From: Phaeodactylibacter xiamenensis
Lineage (GTDB): Bacteria > Bacteroidota > Bacteroidia > Chitinophagales > Saprospiraceae
Length of the DNA stretch: 64,000 bases
Direction: 5' to 3'
Assembly: GCF_000759025.1 (NCBI RefSeq)
Contig: NZ_JPOS01000075.1
Location: 1 to 64,000, forward strand
Of this stretch, positions 1 through 40,559 are shown one piece after another. The notes below the pieces were generated by a model. That model saw nothing but the letters and a program-made list of their open reading frames with translations, had not been told where the DNA came from and did no database searches. The translations under genes and the position numbers were made by a program. Within the stretch, counting starts at the first letter, position 1; every line of letters starts with the position of its first letter.

Positions 1-2
1 TA

Positions 3-776: not shown

Positions 777-837
777 ATAAGCCTGCTGCCTGTCGCGGGG
801 TTACCTTGCGCGGGCAGCAGCTCAAAAGCATCATCCA

Positions 838-3711: not shown

Positions 3712-3739
3712 GGCCGCAGCGGCCATTCAAAAGATACCG

Positions 3740-3771
3740 AAAGGGGACAGTGATGAGCACTGCCCCCTTTT
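3740..3771 (+). terminator. Intrinsic terminator after the exported protein
   Basis: Stem AAAGGGGACAGTG with CACTGCCCCCTTTTG (one imperfect position) around a short loop, starting about 28 bases after the stop codon and ending in a T-rich stretch. Confidence 0.65.
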
Positions 3772-3879
3772 GTTTGTCATAATAGCATGTCACAATAATG
3801 TTTACCCCGTGCTATGGATCGTTCACGGCAATTGTTAAGGCATTCGCCACATATTTCAAATTCCCTTTCTCTTCTTCTG

Positions 3880-3887
3880 TAAATTTG
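3880..3887 (+). promoter_or_regulatory. Candidate -7 box upstream of the putative small RNA
   Basis: TAAATTTG matches the Bacteroidota -7 consensus TAnnTTTG exactly. No convincing TTG-type -33 box lies 17-23 bases upstream. No open reading frame follows; instead the next strong signal is a hairpin terminator about 125 bases downstream. Confidence 0.35.
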
Positions 3888-3893
3888 AGTTAT

Positions 3894-4051
3894 CGAAACG
3901 ATCCCACCTACCGATTAATGAAGCTAAACCCAGATGGGCCATTTCAAGTAGAAGGTCCATACAGTTGGCATACTTAACCTTTAGCCTTAAGAATTTTATG
4001 GGGAACCTTTACGCTACAGCCCTTAACGGGTTGTTAGGGCTGTAGCTTTTT
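3894..4051 (+). ncRNA. Candidate structured small RNA (unclassified)
   Basis: The gene-free interval 3712-4297 holds a perfect -7 box followed by a strong terminator, with no good ORF between them. This implies a transcript of roughly 155-160 nt. Inside it are a local hairpin at about 3938-3962 (TGGGCC paired with GGTCCA through a G-U) and a CTTAA/TTAAG stem-loop near 3975-3995. I could not match it to RNase P, SRP RNA or tmRNA by their conserved motifs. A 6S-like or trans-acting RNA is possible. The rest of the interval (4052-4206) shows nothing recognisable. Confidence 0.3.
4013..4050 (+). terminator. Strong intrinsic terminator without an upstream ORF
   Basis: GCTACAGCCC-T-TAAC pairs with GTTAGGGCTGTAGC (14 pairs and one bulged T), followed at once by TTTTT. 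Only the plus-strand side has the T run, so it should end a rightward transcript, although no gene lies immediately to the left. Confidence 0.65.
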
Positions 4052-4206
4052 CACCCAAAAACAAACACTACACATATCCCGGTAATTAGACATTAGGGGA
4101 ATATGCACGGGCGTTTATCGCCGATGAACAAACACCACATTCAAACACAATAACAACACGAACGGGATTAATTAAGTGCCTTAGGGCCTTCAATGGATAT
4201 TTAGGA

Positions 4207-4236
4207 AAAAGGCTGCGGTAATCCCCGCAGCCTTTT
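4207..4236. terminator. Bidirectional terminator downstream of porT
   Basis: Perfect 12-bp inverted repeat AAAAGGCTGCGG / CCGCAGCCTTTT with a 6-base loop. Read leftward it sits about 60 bases after the porT stop and ends in a T run. Confidence 0.7.
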
Positions 4237-4297
4237 CTATTGTGCCGACAGAGCGTATATCGCTAAGGCTTGCTTTTACTGCCCCCGAAACCAGCTT

Positions 4298-5044
4298 TTA
4301 CCCCTCAAAGTGGAAGGAAAGCGTAAAGGTCCGGGAAAGTATCTTTTCCAGAACGGTAGACTCCTCGATATTTTCATTATAGATCAGCGTATTGCCGATG
4401 CCATGGGATATCTTGATTTCAGGAGAAAAGATGAAGAATGGGAAGAAGAACTGCACGCCTGCGCCATACTCCAGTGCGAATTCATTGGGGGCTATGCGCA
4501 CGAGGGTCTCCGCCTGCCGGGTTTGCGAATCACTGGCCACATCAAAGGCATACTTCACACCAGCAATGACAAAAAGCCGCATATCCTTGTAGGGGGCCGA
4601 CTTGTAGCGCAGGTGGAAAGGCATTTCCACGAGGACAGACTCTACCCGCCGTTCAGAAAAATTAGACCGCCGCCCAAAACGGGTGTAGCTAATCGTCCGC
4701 TCAGCAAAAGATAGGGTGGGGAGGAAGCGAAAATCGAAATGATCGCCCATTTTCAGGTTGGTGACAATACCAAGATTGAAGCCCGGCCCTGAGGCGGACT
4801 CGACCACGCGGATGGAGTCGCTTTGCAGGAACTGATCAGAGTTGAAGGGCGTGAACCGGGAGGAGTTGTACCCCAGCGTAATGCCGAAATAGTAAGGCTT
4901 TTGCTGGAAGTCAAAAAAGTTGTAATTGCCGGTAGGCTGGGCAGACATTTTCTGAGCCGGCAGCAGAAAAAGCAGGGCGCAGGCTAAGCCTAAGCTTTGC
5001 CACCGGAATAAATCGCGCAAACGCCAAGAGTTAGTGGTATGCAT
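4298..5044 (-). CDS. porT: T9SS outer-membrane protein PorT
   Basis: The 248-residue protein has an N-terminal hydrophobic signal segment (LACALLFLLPA, processing before AQPTG) followed by a short beta-barrel pattern of alternating aromatic strands ending in SRTFTLSFHFEG, as in the PorT/SprT family. PorT is required for secretion by the type IX system. Location directly behind ubiE supports the call, because I recall the same ubiE-porT order in other Bacteroidota. The ATG used here lies inside ubiE and gives a 55-nt overlap; no later Met precedes the signal segment. Translation coupled to ubiE is likely. The hairpin at 4207-4236 ends the operon. Confidence 0.75.
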   Translation of the reverse strand: MHTTNSWRLRDLFRWQSLGLACALLFLLPAQKMSAQPTGNYNFFDFQQKPYYFGITLGYNSSRFTPFNSDQFLQSDSIRVVESASGPGFNLGIVTNLKMGDHFDFRFLPTLSFAERTISYTRFGRRSNFSERRVESVLVEMPFHLRYKSAPYKDMRLFVIAGVKYAFDVASDSQTRQAETLVRIAPNEFALEYGAGVQFFFPFFIFSPEIKISHGIGNTLIYNENIEESTVLEKILSRTFTLSFHFEG

Positions 5045-5721
5045 TGATTTGATTTGAAGCCAATTTTGCTAAGAATGTCGGTAAACTGTTCGCGGTCAGG
5101 AAATGCCTGCACCGATTCGTAAAGGTAACTGTAAGCCCTGGGGTCCTTAGAAGTCAGCCGGCCCACGGTGGGCAGGATGTTCCGGAAATAAAAGTTGTAC
5201 AGTTGCTTGAACGGGAAAACCCGGGGTTTGGAAAACTCCAGTACCACAAGCTTGCCGCCCGGCTTTAGCACCCGATGCATTTCTTCGAGCCCCTTTTCCA
5301 GGTGTTCAAAATTGCGCACACCAAAAGCAACGGTGATGGCATCAAACGTATTGTCTGAAAACGGCAAATTCTCTGAGTCGCCCTGCTGCAGCTCAATGGT
5401 GGTGCTTAAGCCACGTTTATCGATTTTAGTCCGGCCAATTTCAAGCATCTCATTGGCAATATCAATGCCGATGATTTTCTCAGGCTGCAATTGCCGTGCG
5501 GTCTCCAGTGCCACATCTGCCGTGCCGGTAGCCACATCGAGCACCACCTTAGGCGCATCCTCCTTCAACAGCTTGATGGCCCGCTTGCGCCAGTACACAT
5601 CAATACCCAGAGACAACAGGCGGTTCAGGAAATCATAGTAGGGCGCGATGCCATCAAACATCTTCGAGACCTGCTCTTTCTTACTGCCCGACTGATCATA
5701 CGGCTTTACTTCCTCTGCCAT
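4990..5721 (-). CDS. ubiE: Demethylmenaquinone methyltransferase
   Basis: A class I SAM-dependent methyltransferase of 243 residues that makes menaquinone from demethylmenaquinone (MenG/UbiE family). The start is set at the Met of MAEEVKPYDQ, because the 21 upstream residues of the ORF lie over a promoter box and are not family-like. Visible motifs are the family signature FDGIAPYYDFLNRLLSLG, the SAM-binding VLDVATGTADVAL, and VAFGVRNFEHLEKGLEEMHRVLKPGG with LVVLEFSKP. The C terminus (PLTLGVCAIYSGGK) is complete even though it overlaps the porT start. It is transcribed divergently from gyrA. Confidence 0.95.
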   Translation of the reverse strand: MAEEVKPYDQSGSKKEQVSKMFDGIAPYYDFLNRLLSLGIDVYWRKRAIKLLKEDAPKVVLDVATGTADVALETARQLQPEKIIGIDIANEMLEIGRTKIDKRGLSTTIELQQGDSENLPFSDNTFDAITVAFGVRNFEHLEKGLEEMHRVLKPGGKLVVLEFSKPRVFPFKQLYNFYFRNILPTVGRLTSKDPRAYSYLYESVQAFPDREQFTDILSKIGFKSNQCIPLTLGVCAIYSGGKA

Positions 5722-5740
5722 AGTAATTTCAAAATTTTTG

Positions 5741-5748
5741 CAAAGATA
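5741..5748 (-). promoter_or_regulatory. -7 box of the ubiE-porT operon
   Basis: On the minus strand TATCTTTG matches TAnnTTTG exactly and ends 19 bases before the chosen ubiE ATG, implying a very short leader. This also supports the shortened ubiE start. No clear -33 TTG is seen. Confidence 0.5.
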
Positions 5749-5800
5749 TATTTTGGGAAGGGAGTGGCCGTCATAGTAAAGCAAAATCCTGTTTTTTTCT

Positions 5801-5808
5801 TATCTTTG
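5801..5808 (+). promoter_or_regulatory. -7 box of gyrA
   Basis: TATCTTTG, an exact TAnnTTTG match, lies 47 bases before the gyrA ATG and about 55 bases from the divergent ubiE box carrying the same octamer. Confidence 0.5.
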
Positions 5809-5855
5809 CCTGTCTTTGAAAAAAGGGCAAGAAAATACAAGAATAAACCGCTTAC

Positions 5856-8444
5856 ATGTCTTTGAAACAGCGAATTATCCCCGTTAATATCGAGGACCAA
5901 ATGAAGTCGGCCTACATCGATTACTCTATGTCAGTAATCGTTTCCCGGGCGCTTCCGGATGTACGGGACGGCCTCAAGCCGGTGCACCGACGGGTCCTGT
6001 ACGGTATGTCAGATTTAGGGCTAACCTACAACAAAAGCTATAAAAAGTCAGCGCGTATCGTTGGAGAGGTGCTGGGTAAATACCACCCTCATGGTGACTC
6101 TTCCGTATACGACACGATGGTCCGTATGGCACAGCACTGGTCTCTGCGCTACCCGCTGGTAGACGGTCAGGGCAATTTTGGCTCTATGGATGGCGACAGC
6201 CCGGCCGCCATGCGTTATACCGAGGCTCGCCTGGAGCGTATCTCTGATGAAATGCTGGCAGATATCGGTAAGGAAACCGTCGATTTTGCCTTCAACTTTG
6301 ATGATACGCTGAAGGAACCAACGGTACTGCCTGCCAGAATCCCAAACCTGCTGGTCAACGGCGCCTCTGGTATCGCTGTAGGTATGGCGACCAATATGCT
6401 GCCGCACAACCTCACAGAAGTGGTCGATGGCATCGTGGCGCAAATTGCCAATCCGGATATTACCATCGAAGAATTGATGCAATACATCAAAGCGCCGGAT
6501 TTCCCAACCGGTGGCATTATCTATGGTACGAGCGGTGTGCGCGAAGCATTCGAAACCGGCCGTGGCCGGGTCGTGGTCCGGGGCCGGGCCGAGATTCAGG
6601 TGGCTGATAATGGCAGAGAAACCATTGTGGTAACAGAAATCCCCTATCAGGTCAATAAAGCCAACCTGGTCGCCAAGATCGCCGAGCTGGTGAATGACAA
6701 AAAGATCATCGGTATCAGCGATATCCGGGATGAGTCCGACCGCGATGGCCTGCGCATCGTAGTGGATGTGAAGCGGGATGCTATGGCCAGCGTTGTGCTG
6801 AGCATGCTGTACAAGTACACTGCTTTGCAGACTTCCTACGGTGTCAATAACGTAGCCCTGGTTAATGGCCGGCCTGAGCTGCTCAACCTGAAAGATATCA
6901 TCGCGGAGTTTATCAAGTTCCGCATCGAGGTTATCGTGCGCCGTACGCAGTATGATTTGCGCAAAGCGATTGCCCGTGCGCATATCCTGGTCGGCCTGCT
7001 CATTGCGCTGGACTACATAGATATGGTCATTGACCTCATCCGTGGCTCTGCTACGCCGGAGGATGCCCGCAATGGTTTGATGGCAGGAGCCTTTATCGAG
7101 GATATGGATAAGTTCTGGAAGCAGTTTGGCCCGCTGATTGAGCAGGCGGACACCGATGAATATCCGAGAGAAGAGGGCAATGCGCTTTCAGAAGCTCAGG
7201 CGCGCGCGATTCTGGATATGCGGCTGCAAAAGCTGACTGGCCTGGAGCGGGATAAGGTGAAAGAGGAGTACGATGAACTGCAGGAGCGTATCGCCTATTT
7301 GAAATCTATCCTGGAAAGCGAAGAGCTGCAGCGTGAAATTGCCGCAGAAGAATTGCAGGAGATCAAAGAAAAATACGGAGATGAACGCCGTACTGATATC
7401 ACAGCTGCGGATGGCGAAATCAGCATTGAAGACCTGATTGCCAATGAGGAGGTTGTGGTTACGATTTCCAGTTTAGGCTACATCAAGCGGACACCGGTCT
7501 CTGAATACCGTAAGCAAAGCCGGGGCGGGCGTGGCTCCCGTGGCAGTAAGACCCGGGATGCGGATTTTGTGGAGCACTTGTTCATTGCAAGTACCCACAA
7601 CTACCTGCTGCTCTTCACGGAGTCCGGGCGTTGTCATTGGTTAAGAGTCTATGAAATACCGGAAGCGAATAAGACCTCAAGCGGCCGGGTGATTCAGAAT
7701 ATCCTGGCTATTCCAAAAGACGATAGTATCAAAGCCTATATTAATATTCAGGACCTGACGGATGAGGAGTTCATCAACAATAACAATATTGTTTTCTGCA
7801 CCCGCAATGGCCTGATCAAGAAGACGCTGGTCGAAGCCTACTCCCGTCCACGGGCAGGTGGCATTAACGCTATTACCATCAACGAAGGCGATCAGCTGAT
7901 AGAGGCGAAACTAACCAACGGTAACCAAGAGGTATTTATCGCCAGCCGTTCCGGGCGGGCGATCCGCTTTGAAGAATCCAAAGTGCGGGCTATGGGCCGT
8001 ACCGCTGCCGGTGTCCGGGGCATTAGCCTGAATGAAGATGGCAAAGATATCGCGGTAGGCATGGTCATCATTGATCCGGAAGAAGCCGAAACAGCCATTA
8101 TGGTCCTTTCTGAAAAGGGGATGGGCAAACGTACGTTGTACAGTGACTATCGTTTGACCAACCGCGGTGGTAAGGGGGTCAAGAATATGCAAATCACAGA
8201 TAAAACAGGTGGGGTGTTCTCCATCAAAGCAGTGAGCGAGGATAGTGACCTGATGATCACCACTCGTGATGGCATCGTGATTCGTATGGCCGTTAGCGAT
8301 ATCAGGGTGATGGGCCGTGCCACACAGGGTGTGCGCCTCATTAAGCTGGATAAGCACGATGAAATGGCCGATATCGCCGTGATTCATAAGTCAGAGGATG
8401 AAGATGAGCCAACGACGCCTCCGGCATTCGATGAAGAGGAATAG
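5856..8444 (+). CDS. gyrA: DNA gyrase subunit A
   Basis: The 862-residue breakage-reunion subunit of gyrase. The catalytic tyrosine is Tyr121 (AMRYTEARL). The quinolone-resistance region reads [10 protein letters not shown], with Ser82 and Asp86 matching E. coli Ser83 and Asp87, so the usual resistance substitutions are absent. The C-terminal beta-pinwheel contains the gyrase-specific box NRGGKGVKN, which separates it from ParC. The tail is acidic ([16 protein letters not shown]). Length fits Bacteroidota GyrA. It stands alone, divergent from ubiE. Confidence 0.97.
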
Positions 8445-8593
8445 GAACTGGTTTTAACATTTTGTAAATACCGATTCTTTCCGGAAATTCGTCTAATAGA
8501 GTGAAAAATTGGGGATTTTGGGGTCTTTTTTGATCTTAAGCCCCGTTTTTCGGGTTATTTGAATACAAACCAAAAATGAAAATTGCATACAAC

Positions 8594-9931
8594 ATGAAAA
8601 AACTGATCTTAGCACTGACTGCTGTATTGATGGTATTTGCAGTACAGGCACAGGACGGTAAGAAGGCGGTTCGTAAGGCATCAAGTGCTCTGGGTGCTTT
8701 TAATCTGGACCCTACCAACAACAAAGAAAAGCTGCAAGAGGCTATTGACCTTATCGAGGAGGGCGCTTCAGATCCGGAATCCTCAAAGGAGGCCAAAACT
8801 TTCCTGACTAAAGGTGAGATCTACAATGAAATCGCGAATCAGTATCTGATTGCAAGCCAGCTAGGAGACACGGTAGCAGCGAAAAAACTTCCACAAGTTG
8901 ACGATCCTGCTATGATCGCTGCTGAAGCTTTCCTTAAGGCTTATGAGCTGGCCGAGAAAAAATGGGAAACCAAAGACGCTACCAAAGGAATGGCACAGGC
9001 TCAGGGCCACCTTTCCAACAGCGGTGTGATGGCTTTTCAGGATGAGCAGAACTATGAGAAGGCTTACAATGACTTCAAAATGGTGCTTGACCTGCACAAG
9101 GTCCTGACTGATGAGAAAGAGGATAGTAACCTGAAGAGCGAAGACGACTACCTCAATCAGTTGTACATCACCGGGCTTTCTGCGATCAACGCTAATGAGA
9201 TGGACGCAGCAAAGGGCTATTTTGACCAGCTCTACGAAAAGAAATATGACAAGCCTGTCATTTACGAATCGCTGTACAAAATTACAGCAACGGATGAATC
9301 CAAAATGGACGAAGCCTATGCCTATCTTGAAGAGGGCCGTAAGCTGTTCCCGGACGATGTATCTCTGCTGTTCGCAGAAATCAACCACTTCCTCCGTATT
9401 GGCAAACTCGATGTGCTGATTACCAAGCTGCAAACGGCTATTGAAAAAGAGCCGGACAACGTTTCGCTTTACTCTACTTTGGGTAACGTCTACGACAACC
9501 TCTACCAAAAGGCACTAAAGGCCAACGATGAAGCAGCCGCAAAGGAGAACTTCGACAGCGCAATGAAGTACTATCAGCAGGCGGTCAATAAGGACGCCGA
9601 TTACGTTGATGCGATCTACAGTATCGGTGCCCTGTATTACAACAAGGCAGCGGTTATGACACAGGACCTCAATAAGTACGCTGATGACTACTCCAAGGAA
9701 GGCCTGAAGAAGTACGAAGAGCTCAAGAAGAATATCTTCGAGGAGTTTGATAACGCACTGCCATTCTTCCAGAAGGCGGAGTCGATTAACCCAAGCGACT
9801 TGAACACGCTGATTGCCCTCAAGGAAATCTACGCACGTAAAGACGACCTGGAGAAGTCCAATGTCTTCAAGGAGCGTATCGACCGCATTCAGGCGGGTGA
9901 GACAATCGAAGATGCCTACTTTGATAAGTAA
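8594..9931 (+). CDS. Exported TPR-repeat protein
   Basis: The ORF opens at 8576, but the second Met at 8594 begins a clean signal peptide (MKKLILALTAVLMVFAVQAQ), so that start is preferred, giving 445 residues. The mature part is helical. TPR-like units are clear at about residues 285-360 of the ORF (SLYSTLGNVYDNLYQKAL, then AMKYYQQAVNKDADYVDAIYSIGALYYNKA) and continue to the end (KAESINPSDLNTLIALKEIYARK). It is probably a periplasmic or outer-membrane-associated scaffold. No partner gene is adjacent; a strong terminator follows. Confidence 0.85.
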   Translation: MKKLILALTAVLMVFAVQAQDGKKAVRKASSALGAFNLDPTNNKEKLQEAIDLIEEGASDPESSKEAKTFLTKGEIYNEIANQYLIASQLGDTVAAKKLPQVDDPAMIAAEAFLKAYELAEKKWETKDATKGMAQAQGHLSNSGVMAFQDEQNYEKAYNDFKMVLDLHKVLTDEKEDSNLKSEDDYLNQLYITGLSAINANEMDAAKGYFDQLYEKKYDKPVIYESLYKITATDESKMDEAYAYLEEGRKLFPDDVSLLFAEINHFLRIGKLDVLITKLQTAIEKEPDNVSLYSTLGNVYDNLYQKALKANDEAAAKENFDSAMKYYQQAVNKDADYVDAIYSIGALYYNKAAVMTQDLNKYADDYSKEGLKKYEELKKNIFEEFDNALPFFQKAESINPSDLNTLIALKEIYARKDDLEKSNVFKERIDRIQAGETIEDAYFDK

Positions 9932-9953
9932 GTTAGCTTTTATAGGGTAACAT

Positions 9954-9991
9954 AAAATGCCCGGGCAACGCTGTTGTTGTCCGGGCATTTT
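9954..9991. terminator. Bidirectional terminator between convergent genes
   Basis: AAAATGCCCGGGCAAC pairs with GTTGTCCGGGCATTTT (15 Watson-Crick pairs and one G-T) around GCTGTT, then TTT. It ends directly at the stop codon of the leftward acetyltransferase gene. Confidence 0.8.
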
Positions 9992-10564
9992 TTATACGTC
10001 GTCTTGCTGGTCAATGGCCCGAATGACCCGGCAGGGGTTCCCCGCGGCAAAGCTATCTGCCGGAATATCACGGGTGACCACGCTCCCGGCTCCAATCACT
10101 GCCCGGTCGCCAATCGTCACGCCAGGGCACACGATAACACCGCCCCCCAGCCACACATCATCCCCGATGCGGATCGGCTTGGCATACTCTTTTCCACTGC
10201 TTCGGGCTTCTGCGTTCAGCGGATGAGTAGCCGTGTATAGCTGCACATTGGGGGCGCACATGACCCGGCTGCCGATGTACACCGGTGCCACATCCAGCAC
10301 CACGCAGTTGAAATTGAAAAAGACCCGCTCGCCGGCATAAATGTTATAGCCGTAGTCACAGTAGAACGGCGGTTCAATCCAGAGGTCAGGCTGACTGTTG
10401 GGCAGCAGTTGTTGCAGAATTTCCTGACGCTTGTCTTTTTCGTCATCCCCGGTCTCGTTCAGGGCTTTGAACAAAAGGCGGGCTTTTTGGCGTTCTTCAG
10501 TGAGGGTCGGGTCAAGGGGTACATACATTTCCCCGGCGATCATTTTCTCTTTTTCTGTACGCAT
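9992..10564 (-). CDS. Maltose O-acetyltransferase-like enzyme
   Basis: A left-handed beta-helix acetyltransferase of 190 residues from the Met of MRTEKEKMIAGEMY, the usual N terminus of the Maa/LacA/NodL family; the 31 upstream ORF residues are not family-like. It has the N-terminal Mac domain (MIAGEMYVPLDPTLTEERQKARLL). The hexapeptide core follows: PPFYCDYGYNIYAGERVFFNFNC, the catalytic-His segment TATHPLNAEARSSG, WLGGGVIVCPGVTIGDRAVIGAGSVV, and the ending AAGNPCRVIR. It transfers acetyl from acetyl-CoA to a sugar hydroxyl; the true acceptor cannot be told from sequence. Confidence 0.9.
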   Translation of the reverse strand: MRTEKEKMIAGEMYVPLDPTLTEERQKARLLFKALNETGDDEKDKRQEILQQLLPNSQPDLWIEPPFYCDYGYNIYAGERVFFNFNCVVLDVAPVYIGSRVMCAPNVQLYTATHPLNAEARSSGKEYAKPIRIGDDVWLGGGVIVCPGVTIGDRAVIGAGSVVTRDIPADSFAAGNPCRVIRAIDQQDDV

Positions 10565-10676
10565 GTTGTAAAAAATGAGGAAGTGAAAGAAATAGGCAGA
10601 CGCTATTGCCTGATATTTTTTACCTTGCGCAATTTCTGAAAATTTTGATGTAACCAATTAATACAGTTCGATAATC

Positions 10677-11990
10677 ATGAAGCGTCCAGTTCGGGTTTTT
10701 AAATTTGGAGGATCCTCACTCAAAGATGCAGCGGCTATTCAAAATGTAGCTAATATCCTTCGTGACTTTAAAGACGAAAGCCTGGTGGTGGTGGTTTCTG
10801 CAATGGGCAAAACGACCAATGCCATGGAAACCGTAGTCGAAGCCCATGCCGCTCAGAACGGTAAAGCCTTTGATCTGCTCAACGAAATCAAAGCCCAGCA
10901 TTACCGGATTATGGACGAGCTTTTCCCTTCTCAAAATGAGGAGGTCTATGCTGCGGTTAATGATGTATTCGTAGAAGTGGAGTGGGTGCTGGAAGAACCG
11001 CCGCATGACAACTACGACTACATGTATGATCAGATTGTCTCGATCGGCGAACTGGTCTCCTCCAAAATTGTGAGTGCTTTCCTGAATCAAATGGAATTGC
11101 CGACCGCCTGGCTCGATGCAAGAGACGTGATTCTGACCGACGATATCTTCCGGGAAGGCTGGGTACAGTGGGAACAAACACAGGAACGCGCCACAAAACT
11201 GGTAACCCCACTACTGGAAAAGCCGGGCTTTGTGCTGACACAGGGCTTCATAGGCAGTACTACTGAAAATTTCACCACTACTCTCGGACGGGAAGGCTCC
11301 GACTATACCGCTGCGATTTTTAGCTTTTGCATGGATGCCCAGGATATGACCATATGGAAGGATGTCCCCGGTGTCCTGACGGCAGATCCCCGAAAGTTCG
11401 AGAATGTTACCCTTCTCGACCGCCTCTCCTACAAGGAAGCCATCGAGATGACCTACTACGGTGCTAAGGTCATTCACCCCAAGACCATCAAGCCGCTTCA
11501 GAACAAGAGCATCCCGCTGATGGTGAAGTCTTACATCAACCCGGAAGGCGCGGGCACCTATATTTCCGATGAGGTAGAGGATAACTATCCGCCAATGGTC
11601 GCCATCGAAGGCGATCAGGTATTGCTGCAGATCAGCACCCGCGATTTTTCCTTCGTTGCAGAGCACCACATCCGGGAACTGTTCAACATTATCGCTGATC
11701 TTCGCATTCAGGTGAATATGATGCAAAACTCAGCCATCAGTTTCAGCCTGTGCGTCAATGATGTGGACGATAAAGCCGACCGTTTCGCCCAGCGCATTGA
11801 GCAGGACTTCAAAGTGATGATGGACCGCGGGCTCGAACTCATTACTGTTCGGCATCATCAACCCGCTATTATGGAAGAACTGCGCAAAGGCAAAATTGTC
11901 CTGCTGGAAGAACGCATTAAGGACACCACCATTCAAATGGTAGTGAAGGATGTGCCGGTCATGCGCCGTAAGAAGGTGCCCACAGCATAA
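10677..11990 (+). CDS. lysC: Aspartate kinase (monofunctional)
   Basis: The 437-residue enzyme phosphorylates aspartate, the first step to lysine, methionine, threonine and diaminopimelate. Visible features are the N-terminal nucleotide-binding KFGGSSLKDAAAIQNV, VVVVSAMGKTTNAM, the substrate region TLGREGSDYTAAI, WKDVPGVLTADPR and EMTYYGAKVIHPKTI. ACT-like regulatory domains follow from about residue 310. There is no homoserine dehydrogenase domain, so it is not a ThrA fusion. The ACT domains suggest allosteric feedback, but the effector is not visible. Confidence 0.95.
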   Translation: MKRPVRVFKFGGSSLKDAAAIQNVANILRDFKDESLVVVVSAMGKTTNAMETVVEAHAAQNGKAFDLLNEIKAQHYRIMDELFPSQNEEVYAAVNDVFVEVEWVLEEPPHDNYDYMYDQIVSIGELVSSKIVSAFLNQMELPTAWLDARDVILTDDIFREGWVQWEQTQERATKLVTPLLEKPGFVLTQGFIGSTTENFTTTLGREGSDYTAAIFSFCMDAQDMTIWKDVPGVLTADPRKFENVTLLDRLSYKEAIEMTYYGAKVIHPKTIKPLQNKSIPLMVKSYINPEGAGTYISDEVEDNYPPMVAIEGDQVLLQISTRDFSFVAEHHIRELFNIIADLRIQVNMMQNSAISFSLCVNDVDDKADRFAQRIEQDFKVMMDRGLELITVRHHQPAIMEELRKGKIVLLEERIKDTTIQMVVKDVPVMRRKKVPTA

Positions 11991-12024
11991 ACTTGCCGGA
12001 AAGTGGTTTTTATCGGATTGACTC

Positions 12025-12050
12025 CCAACCCTCCGGGCTGGTTTTTCGTC
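12025..12050 (+). terminator. Possible terminator after aspartate kinase
   Basis: CCAACCC-TCC-GGGCTGG (one A-C mismatch, three-base loop) followed by TTTTT. Confidence 0.4.
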
Positions 12051-12072
12051 TGTACACGAAAACAATCATCCG

Positions 12073-12519
12073 ATGAAAGTCCTAAAAATTTTGACTGCCG
12101 TGTTGATCTTCTCCACCCTTTTTGGGGCTTGTGAGCAGTCAGAGGGCGATGGATTAATCCTTTGCCCAACAGGAACCTGTGAGGATCATGTACAGGTGAG
12201 TGACGACCTTTATGAGGATGGGCCGGACGACGAACACATGATTTCCAACGCCTTCATTTTTGACGATTGCCTGGACGTGACCTTCCGATACGGAGGTGGA
12301 TGCGGAGAAGTGGAAGCTCACCTGTTTGCCAGTACAGGTGAAGGTGAGAGCCTGCCACCCACCCGTTTCATCAGGGTAGGTTTTCAGGACGATGATGACT
12401 GCGAGGCGTTGCTTGTCTACACCAAGACTTTTGACTTGACGCCTCTTCGCTCCGGGGCGCATTCTACCGTCCTTCTTCAGTTGGAAGGGTACGAGGAAGT
12501 GCTTGAATATAACTATTAA
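12073..12519 (+). CDS. Small putative lipoprotein, function unknown
   Basis: A 148-residue protein with a hydrophobic N terminus and a lipobox-like end, TLFGAC, giving a predicted lipidated Cys at about residue 20. The mature part is acidic, carries several cysteines (CPTGTC, DDC, GGGC, DDDC) and is predicted beta-rich. The central FDDCLDVTFRYGGGCGEVEAHLF resembles small Bacteroidota lipoproteins seen without known function. It lies 37 bases ahead of another lipoprotein gene on the same strand. Confidence 0.7.
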   Translation: MKVLKILTAVLIFSTLFGACEQSEGDGLILCPTGTCEDHVQVSDDLYEDGPDDEHMISNAFIFDDCLDVTFRYGGGCGEVEAHLFASTGEGESLPPTRFIRVGFQDDDDCEALLVYTKTFDLTPLRSGAHSTVLLQLEGYEEVLEYNY

Positions 12520-12556
12520 AGAAAAGCCTTAACTTACTGAATAAAAAAGACTGCAC

Positions 12557-13066
12557 ATGAAAAAACAACTTCCCTCGCTGTTCCTGCTCTTAGTATTGGC
12601 TTTATCCTGCGGGCAGGGGCCTGTGGAGACCGCTTCCGAAACACCGGCAAGCCCCGAAGAAGCCAACCGGCCGGTGGGTGCCGCTTACGACAGTCTGCTC
12701 GCTCAGGAGCTGGGTGCGGATGACTACGGTATGAAGGTCTACGTGATGGCTTTTCTGTACCGGGGAGAGGCTACAGGACTGGATTCCCTGCAACGGGCTG
12801 AGCTGCAGCGCGCCCATCTCGATAATATTACCCGCATGGCAGAAGCCGGCGACCTGGTCCTGGCCGGCCCGTTTATGGATGGGCAGGATCTTCGGGGCAT
12901 CTACGTATTTGACGTCAGAACCGTTGCTGAAGCGGAGGCGCTGACCAATACAGATCCGGCAATTAAGGCAGGGACGCTGCGCATGGAACTCCGGCCCTGG
13001 TATGGTTCGGCAGCCTTAATGAAAGTCAATGAGCTGCACGAACAGGTGGCCAAGATTGATATTTAG
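12557..13066 (+). CDS. YciI-domain lipoprotein
   Basis: The N terminus is a lipoprotein signal (LLLVLALSC, lipidated Cys at residue 18) followed by a Pro/Ala/Glu linker. From about residue 60 to the end is a YciI-like alpha-beta domain: KVYVMAFLYRG, AHLDNITRMAEAGDLVLAGPF, LRGIYVFDV, AEALTNTDPAIKAG, ELRPWYGSAAL. YciI domains are usually small cytosolic proteins with proposed His/Asp chemistry; export as a lipoprotein is less usual. It converges with the GNAT gene, with 6 bp between stops. Confidence 0.8.
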   Translation: MKKQLPSLFLLLVLALSCGQGPVETASETPASPEEANRPVGAAYDSLLAQELGADDYGMKVYVMAFLYRGEATGLDSLQRAELQRAHLDNITRMAEAGDLVLAGPFMDGQDLRGIYVFDVRTVAEAEALTNTDPAIKAGTLRMELRPWYGSAALMKVNELHEQVAKIDI

Positions 13067-34270: not shown

Positions 34271-36091
34271 ATGGACCGTGAAGAGAACCTCTGGGTGGCC
34301 CTTAGTGAGGGGCGCATCAAAAAACTGACCTTGAACAGGAAAGTCGATTTTGTGCCTACCAATACCGAAAAGGATGCTTTACAGGGAAAGTGGGTGAAGT
34401 CTCTGGTGCAGGCTCCGAATGGCCGGTTATGGCTGGGTACCTGGATCAATGGCGGTTTGTTTGAATGGGATGTCAATCCTTCAGAAAAGCCGGAACAATC
34501 TGAAATAATCAGGTTGCTGCAGGAAGGGTTGGATGTGGCTCAGCTTTATCTGGACCCTGATCAGGAGTTATGGATTAGCACTTTTGATGACGGGCTGCTG
34601 CGCTGGAAGTATGGAGATGAAAACCCAAGGCCTGTCCCGGTAGGCACGAGAGAACAGGAGGGGTTAAGCAGTAATTTTGTGCAGGGAGTCATCAAAGACC
34701 CTCATCGAAAAGGGTATTGGATTGGAACGGAAAAGGGGCTGGATTACTACGACCCGCAGGCACAGTATTGGGAGCACTACAAGCAGGACCCATCCAATCC
34801 CGGTTCACTTTCAGATAACCGCATACAAAGCAATGCAATGGCCTTTGATGCAGACAACCGGCTTTGGCTGGGGACATGGGGCGGAGGAATCAATTGCCTG
34901 CTGCCTGGCGATACGACATTCCGGGTATGGAAAACAGAACGGGGAGACCCGCGCACGATTCCCAAAAACGAAGTGACCTCTCTGCTTGTAGATCACTCCG
35001 GCGCCCTTTGGGTTGGTACTTTTGAAGGCGGTCTGGCAAAAGCTATAGCCAGAGATTCGGCCGGGCTGCCTGCGGTTTTCCGCCGCTTCAGTATTTCGGA
35101 TGGCCTGCCGGGCAACCGGATTTTTTCCCTGGTTGAGGACCAGAAGGGGCGCATATGGGGGAGTACTAATTTTGGGCTGTTCAGCATCGATTCCACGTAC
35201 ACCATTCGCAGCTTCGATAAAGAGGATGGTATTGGCGTGGTGGATTTCTTCTTCTGCGGAGGGCGCGCCCTTGAAGATGGGCGGATTGCCTTTGGTGGCA
35301 CCTTTGGCATGGTCGTTTTTCATCCGGACAGTTTAATGAGCAACAACTACAAAGGCAAGGTAGTGCTCACGGATTTCAGCATACCCAATAGCGCTACTGT
35401 GATGGACAGCGCGATCACCTATCTAAACGAGATTACCTTGTCTCATCCGGACAATGCCTTTACCATTGGCTTTTCTGAGCTGAATTTCCAGCAGTACAAT
35501 TATCGCAACTTCACCTATAAGTTATCAGGCGTAGACGAAGACTGGAACCGGATGATTGGCCAGAATCAGGTGACCTACCTTAATTTGCCGTATGGAGAAT
35601 TTACTTTTGAAGTATTCAGTGGTGACCGCTCAGGAGAAGGGCGGCAGTTGAAAGTGAAGGTCATTCCACCATGGTGGAAAAGCCGTCCATTCCAGTTTTT
35701 AGTGGTTTTGCTGGGGCTTATTTTGCCATTTCTGCTTGTTCTGCTGCATAACCGGAATGTGAGGATTCAAAATACGAGGCTGGAAGCAAAGATCAATCAG
35801 CGGACTGAAGAAATCGAGGAGTTGAATGAACTGCTTCAAAACCAGAATGATGAATTGGAGCGGCAGGTGCAGGCCCGTACCCAAGCCCTGGAGGAAAACA
35901 ACCGCAGCCTGATGCAGAAGAATGCCGAAATGGAGCGTTTTAACTACATTGCTTCCCATGACCTGAAAGAACCCCTGCGCAACATATCTAGTGCCTCCGG
36001 CACTAGAAAAGCGTATTTTATTTCTTTCGGTCAAAGCCTTGGAATTTCCACTTCAGAGGCTTTGCCAGATAGGAATTGTAATATTCGGTAA
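34271..36091 (+). pseudogene. Broken sensor kinase, fragment 2 (propeller, Y_Y_Y, TM, HisKA start)
   Basis: Same frame as fragment 1. It holds the rest of the propeller, a Y_Y_Y domain (SGVDEDWNRMIGQNQVTYLNLPYG), one membrane segment (FLVVLLGLILPFLLVLL), a coiled coil (RTEEIEELNELLQNQNDELER), and the start of the HisKA dimerisation domain with its phospho-acceptor His (NYIASHDLKEPLRNIS). The reading frame then enters the IS at 35991 and adds about 30 foreign residues (ASGTRKAYFIS...). The ATG after the stop would give a protein without a signal peptide, so independent function is unlikely. Confidence 0.85.
35991..36007 (+). repeat. IS630 left terminal inverted repeat
   Basis: GTGCCTCCGGCACTAGA. 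With the flanking target bases it reads CTAGTGCC-TCC-GGCACTAG, so the end is itself a palindrome. Confidence 0.9.
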
Positions 36092-36668
36092 AGTTTTCGA
36101 TTCTGGCTATCAAGCTTTCAATAGAATCGAAGCTTTGATGATTAAGTGCTTTTCGCTGAAGGTGCCCAAACCAGTTTTCGATGGGATTGAGCCATGAACA
36201 GTGCTTAGGCGTGAAAAGAAATCGAATGGCATGATGGTCAACTTCGAGGAAAGCTTTACGAGTGCTCTTTGATTTGAGTACCCCACTTTTGCCTTTAACG
36301 CCCAAGTCTCCCACATAACCAATTTGAGAAGCCACCCACTCGACCAAAGATGCTGACATATGGGTGTTGAGCTGGTCAACAAGAAAGACGGCCTGTTGGC
36401 CTTCCTGCAACACAGCAGTAGTACGCTGAATAAAGCATAGAAAGTCCAGTTCGGTACGAGTAGGATGAATGCGGTAACTGATTAGTTGTCCGGTAGCGAC
36501 ATCCTGAGCCGCCATCAGCGTGGTAGTGCCATGGCGTTTGTATTCATACTCTACACGCCGGTCTCTGCCTGGCCTAAGAGGCTGGCTCTTACGCTCTAAT
36601 GCCTGGATGCCTGTTTTCTCGTCTACACTGAACAGGCGTATGTCCTTGTTCAGCCCTGAGATGACCAA
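36018..36668 (-). CDS. IS630 transposase, catalytic (DDE) part
   Basis: The listed 216 residues start at a TTG, but the same frame is open further upstream and reads REVRPHKNRYWLFPHIDDWEA before it, so the true protein is the downstream part of a fused transposase. DDE motifs are visible: LFSVDEKTGIQ (first Asp), VFLVDQLNTHMS (second Asp) and TPKHCSWLNPIENWFGHLQRKAL (Glu). It is in the +1 frame relative to the upstream ORF, with the switch at an A7 tract (36772-36778). Fusion would need slippage that removes one A, or the element is inactive. Confidence 0.88.
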   Translation of the reverse strand: MVISGLNKDIRLFSVDEKTGIQALERKSQPLRPGRDRRVEYEYKRHGTTTLMAAQDVATGQLISYRIHPTRTELDFLCFIQRTTAVLQEGQQAVFLVDQLNTHMSASLVEWVASQIGYVGDLGVKGKSGVLKSKSTRKAFLEVDHHAIRFLFTPKHCSWLNPIENWFGHLQRKALNHQSFDSIESLIARIENFTEYYNSYLAKPLKWKFQGFDRKK

Positions 36669-36750
36669 TAGGATTAGCTTGCAGATCGTTCGTACCCGTT
36701 GGGCGAAGGCCTCCCAATCGTCGATGTGGGGGAAGAGCCAATAACGGTTC

Positions 36751-37299
36751 TTATGCGGACGTACCTCCCGATTTTTTTAAAATGTTCCTCACATGACTGG
36801 GGGAAATCTTATCTACTATTTTTTGTTCCATGGCCATTTGGGCGAGCGTGTCTCTAGTCCAGGCCCCTTGAGGAAGCCCATAATCAGAGGGCTTTTTACA
36901 CGCCAGAGCGACAATTTGTTCCTTTTGCGCTTGAGTGATGCGTGGCTTCACCCCGCTACGTGCACGGTCAGAAAGGACTAAATCCATTTGTTTGCCTAGT
37001 TCATGGTCGCTGATTGGTTTTCCAGCGCAATCCACTTCCAGGGCTTCGAGCCGCCCCTGATTGTCTGCCCATCGAGTATACCAGCGTATGCCTACATCCG
37101 CACGCAGCCCTAGGTCCTTAGCTGAGCTAAAGGCACTTTTGCCCTCTAGCATACCGTGGAGGAGAGCATAGCGTTGATGCAGCCGATGGCTAAGATGACC
37201 TTGCTTTAGGCGTTTGCTTACCAACGAACGCTGTCTTGGACTTGCTTCTAAGGGTGGGAGTGCTTTTGCCATACTTGAATTATCTTTATGATTGAGCAT
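36751..37299 (-). CDS. IS630 transposase, N-terminal DNA-binding part
   Basis: The 182-residue ORF has helix-turn-helix regions: LSHRLHQRYALLHGMLEGKSAFSSAKDLGLRADVGIRWYTRWADN and a second, winged-helix-like part (RITQAQKEQIVALACKKPSDYGLPQGAWTRDTLAQMA). These are the paired HTH domains of IS630 transposases. An inner Met (MAKALPPLEAS) may be the start. The frame ends just after the A7 run at ILKKSGGTSA, where the catalytic part continues in another frame. Confidence 0.85.
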   Translation of the reverse strand: MLNHKDNSSMAKALPPLEASPRQRSLVSKRLKQGHLSHRLHQRYALLHGMLEGKSAFSSAKDLGLRADVGIRWYTRWADNQGRLEALEVDCAGKPISDHELGKQMDLVLSDRARSGVKPRITQAQKEQIVALACKKPSDYGLPQGAWTRDTLAQMAMEQKIVDKISPSHVRNILKKSGGTSA

Positions 37300-37321
37300 A
37301 AAGATAATTCAAATACTATAA

Positions 37322-37338
37322 TCTAGTGCCGGAGGCAC
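37322..37338 (-). repeat. IS630 right terminal inverted repeat
   Basis: TCTAGTGCCGGAGGCAC, the exact reverse complement of the left repeat. Confidence 0.9.
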
Positions 37339-37340
37339 TA

Positions 37341-37948
37341 GTTTTGCCGGCCTGCTGAGCCGGCACCTGCCTAATCCCAAGGCTCAGGCCCGGGAGTACC
37401 TGCAGATCATCCAAAGCAATGCGAAGCGGATGAACACGCTGATTGAAGACCTTCTGGAATACAGCCGGGTGGCTAATATTGATCATCTTAAGGAACGGGT
37501 GGATTTGCATGCCGTTTTGGAGGAAGTTCGCACTTTAATCAGGGAAGGAGAGCCCACAGGAGGCGCGATCGTTGAGACAGAAAAGCTGCCCGTCATTACC
37601 GGCAATAAAACTCAACTCTTTCTCCTGTTTAAAAATCTGATTTCTAATGGGCTGAAATACAATTCGGCTCCTGATCCGGAAGTACAGTTGAGTTATGAAA
37701 AAAGCAGCTGCTGGCACATCCTGAAGTTTGCAGATAATGGTATTGGTATTGAGCCCCAATATCAGCAAAAGGTATTCGAAATGTTCACCCGGCTTCACGA
37801 CCGGTCGAAGTACGAGGGTTCAGGGCTTGGCCTGGCGATATGCCGGAATATAGTCCATCGGCATAATGGGACCATTGAGTTGGAAAGCCAGATAGGCAAT
37901 GGGAGTGTTTTTACGGTGAAATTGCCAGTCGTGGGGGAGGAGGGGTGA
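37341..37948 (+). pseudogene. Broken sensor kinase, fragment 3 (HisKA end and ATPase)
   Basis: After the IS the kinase continues in the original frame: SFAGLLSRHLPNPKAQAREYLQIIQ, then the HATPase_c domain with the N box (LFKNLISNGLKYN), the G1 box (FADNGIGIEPQYQQKVFEMF) and the G2 box (SKYEGSGLGLAICRNIVHRHNG). Without the IS and the premature stop the gene would code for about 1113 residues. There is no receiver or HTH domain, so it is not a hybrid regulator. Its TGA stop lies inside the repeat at 37944-37997. The ORF beginning at 37430 is only an internal Met. Confidence 0.88.
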
Positions 37949-37997
37949 TCCCGGCAGTGTTGGCTGCGCCCTTCCTTTGGGCTCCGAGGTCAAAAAC
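37944..37997 (+). repeat. Left copy of the tRNA-Arg-linked direct repeat
   Basis: The 54 bases align with 39431-39484 with four differences. The first 18 bases resemble the tRNA-Arg 3' end (GGTGATCCCGGtAGgGTT). The last 30 bases (GCCCTTCCTTTGGGCTCC onward) also recur at 39279-39308, so the two-gene cassette between them is bounded by direct repeats. Confidence 0.85.
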
Positions 37998-38086
37998 TTA
38001 ACCTAGGAAAATCACTACTAAACCAGTTTGTGCTACAATTTGCGAACCTTCCAAAAAAATGTAGTTTTAAGTCCTAATTTTAAGTC

Positions 38087-38632
38087 ATGTTGAAAGCTAC
38101 ATTAGACCAGCTCAAAGAGGGATTTCCTGCGATTTCAAAAAATATCGGACAGTATCTGGCAGAGGGAGGCGCGTTCTGTCTAGAAGCTCACGGGCACAAG
38201 TCTGGTGTAGCTCTGGAAATCCTGGGCGATTATCCGAAAACTGTTGAGCTCTATTGGAGCAATGTTGTAGATACACAGGTTACAAGAGCTTGGAATGACA
38301 GTCAAGAAGCAACTGAATACGGAGCCGTAGCAATTGCCATTGTCATTCTTTCTAAACTGACATCTTATTCCATTATCGAACGATCTTTCAAAGGAACAGG
38401 TTTTGATTATTGGCTTGGTGATGGAGAATACGACGAAAATTTGCTACCTTTTCAACAGCGAAAGGCAAAGCTGGAAGTTTCAGGTATCTGGAAAGAAGCA
38501 GAAACCAATACAGTTGATTCCAGAGTTAATCTGAAACGTCGGCAAATTGATTCTCATGGTGAGGATAATTTTCCAGCAATAATCATTGTAGTGGAATTTG
38601 GAACACCCAAAGCAAAAATGATCGATCAATGA
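38087..38632 (+). CDS. Unknown protein, first gene of two-gene cassette
   Basis: A 181-residue soluble protein, no signal peptide or membrane span. The notable block is FKGTGFDYWLGDGEYDENLLPFQQRKAKLEVSGIW. Its spaced Asp and Glu inside predicted strands recall, without proving, a PD-(D/E)XK-like core; the usual Lys is not obvious. The end DNFPAIIIVVEFGTP looks like a core strand. I do not recognise a named family. The stop overlaps the start of the next gene (ATGA), so the two are translationally coupled. Base composition is low in GC (25 of 60 in one hand-counted line, against 33 of 60 in ung), which suggests transfer. Confidence 0.8.
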   Translation: MLKATLDQLKEGFPAISKNIGQYLAEGGAFCLEAHGHKSGVALEILGDYPKTVELYWSNVVDTQVTRAWNDSQEATEYGAVAIAIVILSKLTSYSIIERSFKGTGFDYWLGDGEYDENLLPFQQRKAKLEVSGIWKEAETNTVDSRVNLKRRQIDSHGEDNFPAIIIVVEFGTPKAKMIDQ

Positions 38633-39177
38633 ATATTGTAACAGTGCTTCACAATAAGGCTATGGAGTTTGCGGATGAGGCCCTTCTGGCAAAGATGGAA
38701 GGGAATCGAGATGTTTCCCATTCTTTATTTGAGAAGGCCTTTTCCCTTGAGAAGGAGGCTACGACGTTAATCGATCAAAAAAATGATTCCTGGTATATTC
38801 TGGTTCGAAGTGCTGCTTCTCTGGCACTTAATTGCGGTAGGTTTCAGGATGCAGAATCATTAATTCAAATGGGCTTATCTGGCACTCCTCCCAGTTTTAT
38901 TGTTAAGGAATTGAAAGACTTGAGCAATACTTTGTCAGATGCTAATAAGAAAAAAGTTAGTGAAGTGGACGTGATTGGAATAATAACCTATGCTAATGCT
39001 GAAGAAAGTCAAATCCGGTTGCAAGATCTAAAGTCCAAGGAAATTTATATCATTTCTGTTCCCAGCCACTTAATCAACGAAATTGTAAAATCCTATTGGG
39101 CAGATGTGGTTCAGGTAAAGGCACAGAGAAAAGCAACGGGTATCATTGTTTTGAATGAGATAACTAAGGCGGCCTAG
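38629..39177 (+). CDS. Unknown helical-repeat protein, second gene of cassette
   Basis: A 182-residue soluble protein in two parts. Residues 1-105 are helical with a TPR- or MIT-like hairpin pattern (HNKAMEFADEALLAKMEGNRDVSHSLFEKAFSLEKEA, then VRSAASLALNCGRFQDAESLIQMGL). Residues 110-180 are predicted beta-rich (DVIGIITYANAEESQIRLQD, SYWADVVQVKAQRK, GIIVLNEIT), perhaps a small barrel. No catalytic motif is visible. The 4-nt overlap and shared low GC (23 of 60 in one counted line) mark it as the partner of the first gene. A scaffold or regulator for the first protein is a guess. Confidence 0.8.
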   Translation: MNIVTVLHNKAMEFADEALLAKMEGNRDVSHSLFEKAFSLEKEATTLIDQKNDSWYILVRSAASLALNCGRFQDAESLIQMGLSGTPPSFIVKELKDLSNTLSDANKKKVSEVDVIGIITYANAEESQIRLQDLKSKEIYIISVPSHLINEIVKSYWADVVQVKAQRKATGIIVLNEITKAA

Positions 39178-39278
39178 GTAGCCTTAGCAGTGGACATCAG
39201 GACTTGATTCTAACTTCGACATTGCTAAGGTTGAAATAAACACAAAACATAATAGGGTTTTCATTAAGGTAGGCTATT

Positions 39279-39624
39279 GCCCTTCCTTTGGGCTCCAAGG
39301 TCAAAAACCTGCAGCCTGCTCGCTGCGCTCGTGCAGGCTATTGCATTTGTCTGCTCCTGCAAAAGGGTTTTGCACCGCTGCCAAATACAACAGCCTGCAC
39401 CCCTCTGGGGCACAGGCTGCTGCTTTCTCTGGTGATCCCGGTAGGGTTGGCTGCGCCCTTCCTTTGGGCTCCAAGGTCAAAAACCTGCAGCCTGCTCGCT
39501 GCGCTCGTGCAGGCTGTTGCATTTGTCCGCTCCTGCAAAAAGGTTTTGCACCGCTGCCAAATACAACAGCCTGCACCCCTCTGGGGCACAGGCTGCTGCT
39601 TTCTCTGGTGATCCCGGTAGGGTT
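39279..39624. repeat. Tandem 176-bp repeat abutting tRNA-Arg
   Basis: Two copies, 39279-39454 and 39455-39624 (the second joins the tRNA), with period 176 and only about three differences seen. Each contains GC-rich inverted repeats and finishes with GGTGATCCCGGTAGGGTT, identical to the 3' end of the tRNA-Arg gene. The ORFs called across it on both strands are repeat artefacts. With 39178-39278, where I see nothing, this fills the gene-free gap. Confidence 0.9.
39567..39595 (-). terminator. Hairpin downstream of tRNA-Arg
   Basis: CAGCCTGTGCCCC-AGA-GGGGTGCAGGCTG read on the minus strand (two non-Watson-Crick positions), about 14 bases after the tRNA, followed by TTGTATTT. The same hairpin recurs 176 bases further on in the other repeat copy. 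Confidence 0.5.
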
Positions 39625-39682
39625 CGAACCCACGACCTGCGGATTAGAAGTCCGCCGCTCTATCCAACTGAGCTACGGGACC
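39609..39682 (-). tRNA. tRNA-Arg (anticodon TCT)
   Basis: A 74-nt cloverleaf. Acceptor arms are GGTCCCG and CGGGATC (one G-U) with discriminator A. The D arm is GCTC-AGTTGGATA-GAGC. The anticodon arm GCGGA-CTTCTAA-TCCGC has anticodon TCT. The T arm is GTGGG-TTCGAAC-CCTAC. CCA is not encoded. It reads AGA/AGG codons. It lies 28 bases downstream of the HEPN gene on the same strand, and its 3' end is copied in the neighbouring repeats. Confidence 0.96.
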
Positions 39683-39710: not shown

Positions 39711-40559
39711 TTAGTATAGTTCAGCTTCTATATTTACTTTTTCCCGCCTTTTCAATCCTTTTAAACCGTAGTTTTGATGGATGAATTCCCAAAGGCGTTC
39801 TTTTTCTGGTAAGTTGCCAATGCTTTTAAGCTCATCAAGTTCATGCTTCACTTCATTGAGCCGAAGGCGCTTGTCTGTTGCCTTCTGATCAATGGCCTTT
39901 GCAATATGTTCCGCAGAAGCAAGAGCGTCTTTTAGCTCCTTCCAGCTTAATCCTATGGGATGATGAAGGGGAGAGGTGAGATCCGGGATGTCTTTCAAAG
40001 TCCTTGCAGTAACCATGCCGCCATTGTGTGCCGCTGCACACCGCAGTTTATAAAACCTCTGCCATTTGGTCAGGTTTGTTCCAAAATCGAGATGAAAAAG
40101 CAATTGTGCATATTTAAGAGGTTCAGGCAAGGAAGACCTGCTCAAAATAGGCCGACCAATAGCATTCCCTATGGCATCGAGCTTTTTCGCGTTTTTGCTC
40201 TTATACCCATTGCTGTATAGATGCCAAAACGTTATTTCTTTTAGATAGCTTTCAAGATTAGCAGCACAAATAACCAGTAAATGAAGCCTTGACCGATTAA
40301 GGTATTCTGGCGCCCACTGTTTGGTTTCTTCCACAGTATGGAAGTGTCGCATTGCAGGAATATCCATATTGAGAGCATTGAGGGTCTGGGTTGCTTTGTC
40401 TTTCATTTCCAGTACCTGCCCGAGTGCTTCGTGGCTGATCACCTGTGTCCAATATAAACGGTTGAGCTCATATTGCTTACCCTGAAACCTCCTGAAGGCA
40501 AGACTTGGAGCCCATTCTTTTGTCATTGAGGAGGTTGAAGGTGGGGTGTTTTCAAACAT
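39711..40559 (-). CDS. HEPN-domain protein (RiboL-PSP-HEPN-like)
   Basis: A 282-residue soluble, helical protein. The central part ([24 protein letters not shown], then [17 protein letters not shown]) matches HEPN organisation, and Arg173-Cys-Ala-Ala-Ala-His178 is the R-x4-H motif that forms the metal-independent RNase site in this superfamily. HEPN proteins are frequent in toxin-antitoxin and anti-phage systems and in RNA processing. No nucleotidyltransferase (MNT) partner is adjacent. Moderately low GC and a position beside the tRNA and repeats suggest accessory DNA. RNase activity is inferred from the motif only. Confidence 0.75.

Follow-up and report, generated by a model that had tools for sequence, protein, structure and literature searches.

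Layout of the locus and its repeat array

A pair of small overlapping genes, ORF1 and ORF2, lies between 30-bp direct repeats next to a tRNA-Arg gene in the window, i.e., the whole 64,000-nucleotide stretch of DNA analysed. The features of the locus are the following:

37944-37961, plus strand: incomplete tRNA-Arg 3'-end copy (GGTGATCCCGGCAGTGTT), which overlaps a kinase fragment at its stop codon
37944-37997: third, partial copy of a 176-bp repeat unit
37968-37997, plus strand: left 30-bp direct repeat (GCCCTTCCTTTGGGCTCCGAGGTCAAAAAC), from repeat comparison
37998-39278, plus strand: insert between the repeats, 1281 bp, GC 0.397, missing from the uninterrupted unit of two same-genus genomes
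38087-38632, plus strand: ORF1, 181 aa, predicted to be restriction-endonuclease-like (PD-(D/E)XK-like) from structure model and alignment
38629-39177, plus strand: ORF2, 182 aa, its start overlapping the ORF1 stop (ATGA); predicted TPR-like helical N-terminus (about residues 1-108) and C-terminal OB-like barrel (about 111-180)
39279-39308, plus strand: right 30-bp direct repeat, with A for G at one base, opening a complete 176-bp unit
39279-39454, plus strand: 176-bp repeat unit 2, with a copy of the tRNA-Arg 3' end at its end
39455-39624, plus strand: 176-bp repeat unit 1, adjoining and taking in the true 3' end of tRNA-Arg; it is an intact paralogue of the site that holds the insert
39606-39682, minus strand: tRNA-Arg, anticodon TCT, an integration hotspot

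These coordinates bear out the original prediction of two genes overlapping at ATGA between 30-bp repeats with a single difference (29/30 identity of left and right copies), and the copy of the tRNA-Arg 3' end anticipated at the left repeat is that found at 37944-37961. The 30-bp repeats are not a simple pair but part of a 176-bp tandem unit. Specifically, the units at 39279-39454 and 39455-39624 stand in tandem and are 98% identical over 170 nt, the final ~18 nt of the tRNA-Arg gene recur at the unit edges, and with 1311 bp taken out the array has three units at an even spacing of 176 bp. The locus thus carries att-like direct repeats at a tRNA end, in the form of 30-bp repeats inside units that bear tRNA-Arg 3'-end copies. 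Searching the 7.87-Mb genome with the 28-nt core of the repeat (up to 3 mismatches) returned three sites, all at the window locus, and the reversed-pattern control gave zero matches genome-wide; a dispersed-repeat origin of the 30-mer was rejected on the same search, which recovered no copy outside this locus. None of 50 sliding control positions in the window was flanked by similar repeats.

ORF1 and ORF2 are the sole genes between the 30-bp repeats, and neither an integrase nor a transposase occurs there, as expected for the cassette without integrase that had been proposed. Base composition likewise agreed with the proposal of a lower GC than that of core genes: besides the low GC of the insert as a whole (0.397), GC3 was 0.32 for ORF1 and 0.39 for ORF2 versus 0.43-0.65 in seven neighbouring coding stretches.

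Several other features were observed around the cassette. An IS630-type element (window 35993-37337), encoding a DDE_3 protein (36018-36668) and an HTH_32 protein (36751-37299) on the minus strand, splits a sensor histidine kinase gene (34271-36091 and 37338-37948) that is uninterrupted in the sister genome G004. On the far side of tRNA-Arg, a 282-aa gene (39711-40559, minus strand, GC 0.44), for which no Pfam, NCBIfam or PADLOC family was matched, is also found beside tRNA-Arg in the genomes G002 and G003. Positions 1-3500 of the window have a GC of 0.58-0.64 versus about 0.50 over the remainder.

Comparison with same-genus genomes revealed empty versions of the site. In G004, a single 1118-aa open frame encodes the histidine kinase and runs directly into an uninterrupted unit, followed by the contig end; another contig of this genome (C222, L127) begins inside the 176-bp unit and continues into DNA related to an island of G002. 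The order in G002 is kinase remnant, a single uninterrupted unit, a 9.5-kb stretch and tRNA-Arg. This 9.5-kb island (L126 (G002:C6:84000-103000), 3037-12587), located between tRNA-Arg and its repeat unit, encodes a tyrosine recombinase (Phage_integrase, E 2e-17), a CHC2/Toprim primase-like protein and an STIV_B116-like protein. The integrase island in G002 and the related island DNA in G004 therefore mark tRNA-Arg as an integration hotspot, and together with the uninterrupted units of both genomes they uphold the earlier claim of an insertion beside such a site.

The pair is absent from 2/2 informative same-genus sisters, and its gain in this genome is a simpler reading than its loss in the sisters, the two not being strictly separable because excision across the 30-bp repeats leaves an identical empty site. 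Alternatively, the pair could be old at this position and the sisters could have lost it across the 30-bp repeats, with no recent insertion, a history that would be compatible with any function. Deletion across the repeats would indeed yield exactly the structure of the sisters, but we consider such a history quite unlikely, given a GC3 far under that of the neighbouring genes, nearest relatives that reside in other genera on contigs of about 39-43% GC, and the emptiness of both sampled sisters.

Predicted folds and conservation of the pair

The AF2 model of ORF1 (pLDDT 94.4) comprises a helix (72-91), three strands (96-99, 108-111 and 127-134), a second helix (143-156) and a further strand (164-170), an order of core elements that in this confident model is predicted to be restriction-endonuclease-like, in line with the initial guess of a nuclease-like effector. 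Residues D107, E130, S132, K150 and Q153 are invariant in 37 aligned sequences. In the model, the motif II Asp (D107) lies beside strand 108-111, the motif III Glu (E130) falls within strand 127-134, and K150 and Q153 are placed in the helix after the third core strand. The motif III lysine is missing from its canonical place in ORF1, which is occupied instead by the invariant Ser132 in the 37 aligned members. By analogy, the invariant K150 in the following helix could stand in for it, since the motif III lysine has moved to the motif IV helix in other families of the superfamily (PMC1913061).

Foldseek matches of ORF1 in the PDB were weak (all E > 0.001; best E 0.0025, TM 0.2-0.4) and mostly of restriction-endonuclease-like fold; those of this fold type were tRNA splicing endonucleases, the SPARDA effector, CinB, MGME1 and HincII. 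Structure matches in a viral library included an endonuclease, RecU and Holliday-junction resolvases. Because the canonical ExK lysine is absent and the Foldseek matches are weak, catalysis by ORF1 is a guess. At the sequence level, ORF1 had no Pfam or NCBIfam match above noise, its profile matched none of the sequences of solved structures, and its one weak PHROG match (E 0.006) is to a family of unknown function. A single-sequence match to KcsA (E 0.6-0.74) was taken as noise.

The ORF2 model (pLDDT 96.3) consists of five helices followed by a five-stranded barrel. A structure search matched the helical part to TPR and the barrel to RPA/SSB-type OB folds, so the helical-repeat partner originally suggested would be a TPR-like protein with a C-terminal OB barrel. 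Homologues fall into three size classes: a short form of about 105-155 aa with just the TPR part, seen in most cyanobacteria; the window type of about 180-200 aa, in which OB follows TPR; and a long form of about 365-400 aa with a middle domain between TPR and OB. ORF2 had no Pfam, NCBIfam or PADLOC match above noise and no recognisable DNA-binding repressor domain, and a comparison of both proteins with the PADLOC 2023 models returned 0 families at E ≤ 1.

Beyond the original prediction, the pair is a widespread operon. ORF2 is adjacent to ORF1 in 92 of 94 ORF1 genes, overlapping it in 85 and by exactly 4 nt in 69; the two ORF1 genes without an adjacent ORF2 (L063 and L073) are both at contig ends. 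The distance matrices of the two proteins correlate (r 0.64; best of 1000 shuffles, 0.29). Homologues of ORF1 were found in 12/100 relatives, some with 2-3 copies, in 5/396 genomes sampled across the phylum and in at least 130 stretches of a species-level genome collection, 80 of which were kept. Such scarcity, together with the lack of matches to a known family, is not that of a conserved core gene or housekeeping family, the outcome that would have told against the original prediction. The pair is distributed patchily over Bacteroidota, Cyanobacteria, Chloroflexota, Planctomycetota, Nitrospirota and other phyla, and ORF1 homologues also occur in four plasmid records and two viral contigs, with no match in the phage records searched. 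Low GC was rejected as a general trait of the pair (mean difference from flanks of -0.022 over 83 copies).

Two individual copies deserve description. The closest ORF1 relative (L022:852-1396, 64% identity), from an uncultured Lewinella MAG, has one in-frame stop and looks either interrupted or affected by an assembly error. At L101:8257-11590, two tandem copies of the pair enclose a partial ORF2, with repeats derived from the module itself.

Repeat-flanked copies and shared insertion sites

Repeat-flanked bare copies of the pair recur elsewhere, at several unrelated loci. In a strict test that required a repeat of at least 25 bp within 300 bp of the pair on each side, direct repeats flanked 11/88 pairs (leaving 77/88 without) versus 16/514 control units in the same loci (odds ratio 4.4, P 6e-4, an approximate value because some loci, e.g., L041 and L057, are related). 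A protein-level test gave 14/88 flanked pairs versus 9/278 controls. The flanking direct repeats range from 27 to 309 bp, and bare-pair inserts measure 1281 (window), 1081 (L049), 1024 (L084), 1087 (L041), 1121 (L057), 1083 (L086) and 1393 bp (L015). A terminal motif common to the inserts was sought by eye in nine copies, and none was seen.

The repeats are often gene ends, namely those of genes for an alpha-2-macroglobulin-like protein (L049 and L032), an aminotransferase (L084), comM (L015) and an MFS transporter (L034), and correspond at L041 and L057 to the 5' part of a caspase-domain gene; gene names were read from translations, except where a family search was made. Duplicated ends were 158 bp long and 98.7% identical for the Nostoc alpha-2-macroglobulin-like gene, 183 bp and 85% for the aminotransferase of a Planctomyces MAG, and 264 bp and 83% for comM in G025. 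Between the two comM copies, 27 codon differences are synonymous and 6 nonsynonymous, a bias suggestive of two functional alleles that have been maintained separately; the other loci gave no clear pattern of this kind.

Bare pairs between gene-end duplications (Nostoc alpha-2-macroglobulin-like gene, Planctomyces MAG aminotransferase, G025 comM) call to mind a selfish, homing-like element: ORF1, with the help of ORF2, would cut the empty allele, and repair would copy in the pair together with the donor gene end, displacing the native end downstream. The excess of synonymous changes in comM is what two functional alleles would be expected to give, and fungal mobile ORFs with carboxy-terminal duplications provide a precedent (PMC3630166). 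Against this, a PIN-domain toxin-antitoxin-like cassette at L049 is flanked alike, between two further copies of the alpha-2-macroglobulin-like gene end, and therefore the repeat pattern does not need ORF1; the targets are unrelated between loci, the inserts have no common end sequence, and the window repeat is non-coding. On balance, a homing-like element seems unlikely. We would give still less credence, as a decidedly improbable proposition, to the pair being the smallest mobile unit, driving its own insertion at gene ends, copying 30-300 bp of target, swapping 3' ends and doubling as a defence or addiction system. If that were true, the self-mobile pair would be to bacteria what the C-terminus-swapping endonuclease elements are to fungal mitochondria.

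In two Nostoc stretches (L049:10955-12116 and L032:13265-14458), three copies of the alpha-2-macroglobulin-like 3' end separate small cassettes, the pair first and then the PIN module, an arrangement that resembles an accreted cassette array. Insertion sites are shared with other modules as well. A ParE cassette is found at L034 at a site shared with the pair, AbiV and a type II methylase lie upstream of the pair at L020, and in G491 a gene for a full-length PD-Lambda-4_A protein (E 6e-293; L152 (G491:C544), 1589-5470, minus strand) has the pair on one side and a displaced 3' fragment of comM on the other, making the comM 3' end a defence hotspot in the genus of G491. Genes neighbouring the pair are for the most part ordinary, and a PADLOC scan of 101 near versus 100 far neighbours gave no clear separation or excess of defence genes near the pair; the defence reading accordingly draws on single cases and analogy. 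A conserved third gene was also looked for and dismissed, the commonest neighbour families being weakly linked large families or reflecting synteny of related cyanobacteria.

Alternatively, the pair might be purely passive cargo, its insertions and repeats owed entirely to integrases or to RecA-mediated recombination at hotspots formed by tRNAs and gene 3' ends, with a function outside defence (e.g., DNA or RNA repair). The integrase island at tRNA-Arg in G002 and the related island DNA in G004 are compatible with such a route, the predicted fold is common to repair and resolvase enzymes, and many neighbours are ordinary. We nonetheless deem this rather unlikely, as conflict accounts better than housekeeping for a patchy, multi-copy distribution and for insertion sites held in common with toxin-antitoxin and defence genes.

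Proposed role and relation to known systems

Collectively, these findings make it probable that the pair is a horizontally acquired mobile accessory nuclease module residing in a tRNA-associated repeat array, with a likely role in defence or addiction. In its mobility, patchiness, multiple copies, tight coupling and sites common with toxin-antitoxin and defence genes, it behaves like accessory conflict cargo. In the mechanism that we propose, ORF1 and ORF2 would form one accessory two-protein module that was acquired horizontally and inserted into the array. ORF1 would be the nuclease effector and ORF2 its obligate partner, the TPR part docking ORF1 and the OB barrel, where present, binding nucleic acid. 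ORF2 might either restrain ORF1 or aim it, the role of the whole being likely anti-invader defence or addiction. What moves would be the two genes by themselves, some 1.0-1.4 kb, and homologous recombination or integrases acting in trans would set them down between duplicated stretches of local sequence, in many cases gene 3' ends. Two genes that have no Pfam, NCBIfam or PADLOC entry, occur in many phyla and include a predicted nuclease-like fold are promising candidates for a defence or addiction system that has so far escaped recognition, and bare pairs between long, variable repeats raise the question of how small modules with neither integrase nor transposase spread between gene-end hotspots.

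The pair differs from transposons and insertion sequences in that no transposase lies between the repeats, neither protein matches a family, and terminal inverted repeats with a short fixed target duplication are replaced by repeats of 27-309 bp with no shared ends in nine copies. As with integrase-borne tRNA islands, tRNA 3'-end copies flank the region, and a real integrase island is present at tRNA-Arg in G002; unlike ICEs and IMEs, the unit has no integrase, and the position of the pair is within the 30-bp repeat of a downstream unit rather than at the tRNA end. Among PD-(D/E)XK nucleases, DUF506, DUF790 and DUF1626 are families with a migrated lysine (PMC1913061); ORF1 is distinguished by a motif III position that holds an invariant serine instead of lysine throughout the 37-member alignment, by the lack of a Pfam sequence match and by its constant pairing with a TPR/OB protein. 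Endonuclease mobile ORFs of fungal mitochondria come with carboxy-terminal gene duplications (PMC3630166), and, in a similar way, the pair with its nuclease-like gene separates a complete gene (comM, alpha-2-macroglobulin-like gene, aminotransferase) from another, possibly displaced copy of that gene's 3' end. It departs from them in being bacterial, in having two genes and in belonging to neither the LAGLIDADG nor the GIY-YIG type; moreover, its mobility is an inferred one, and the window copy lies in a non-coding array. Finally, although ORF1 and ORF2 have no match among toxin and antitoxin families and ORF2 lacks a recognisable repressor domain, the pair resembles type II toxin-antitoxin systems such as VapBC and ParDE in being a small, overlapping two-gene operon that is patchy, multi-copy and found on plasmids, in its translationally coupled organisation (exactly 4 nt of overlap in 69/94) and in having insertion sites in common with PIN and ParE modules.
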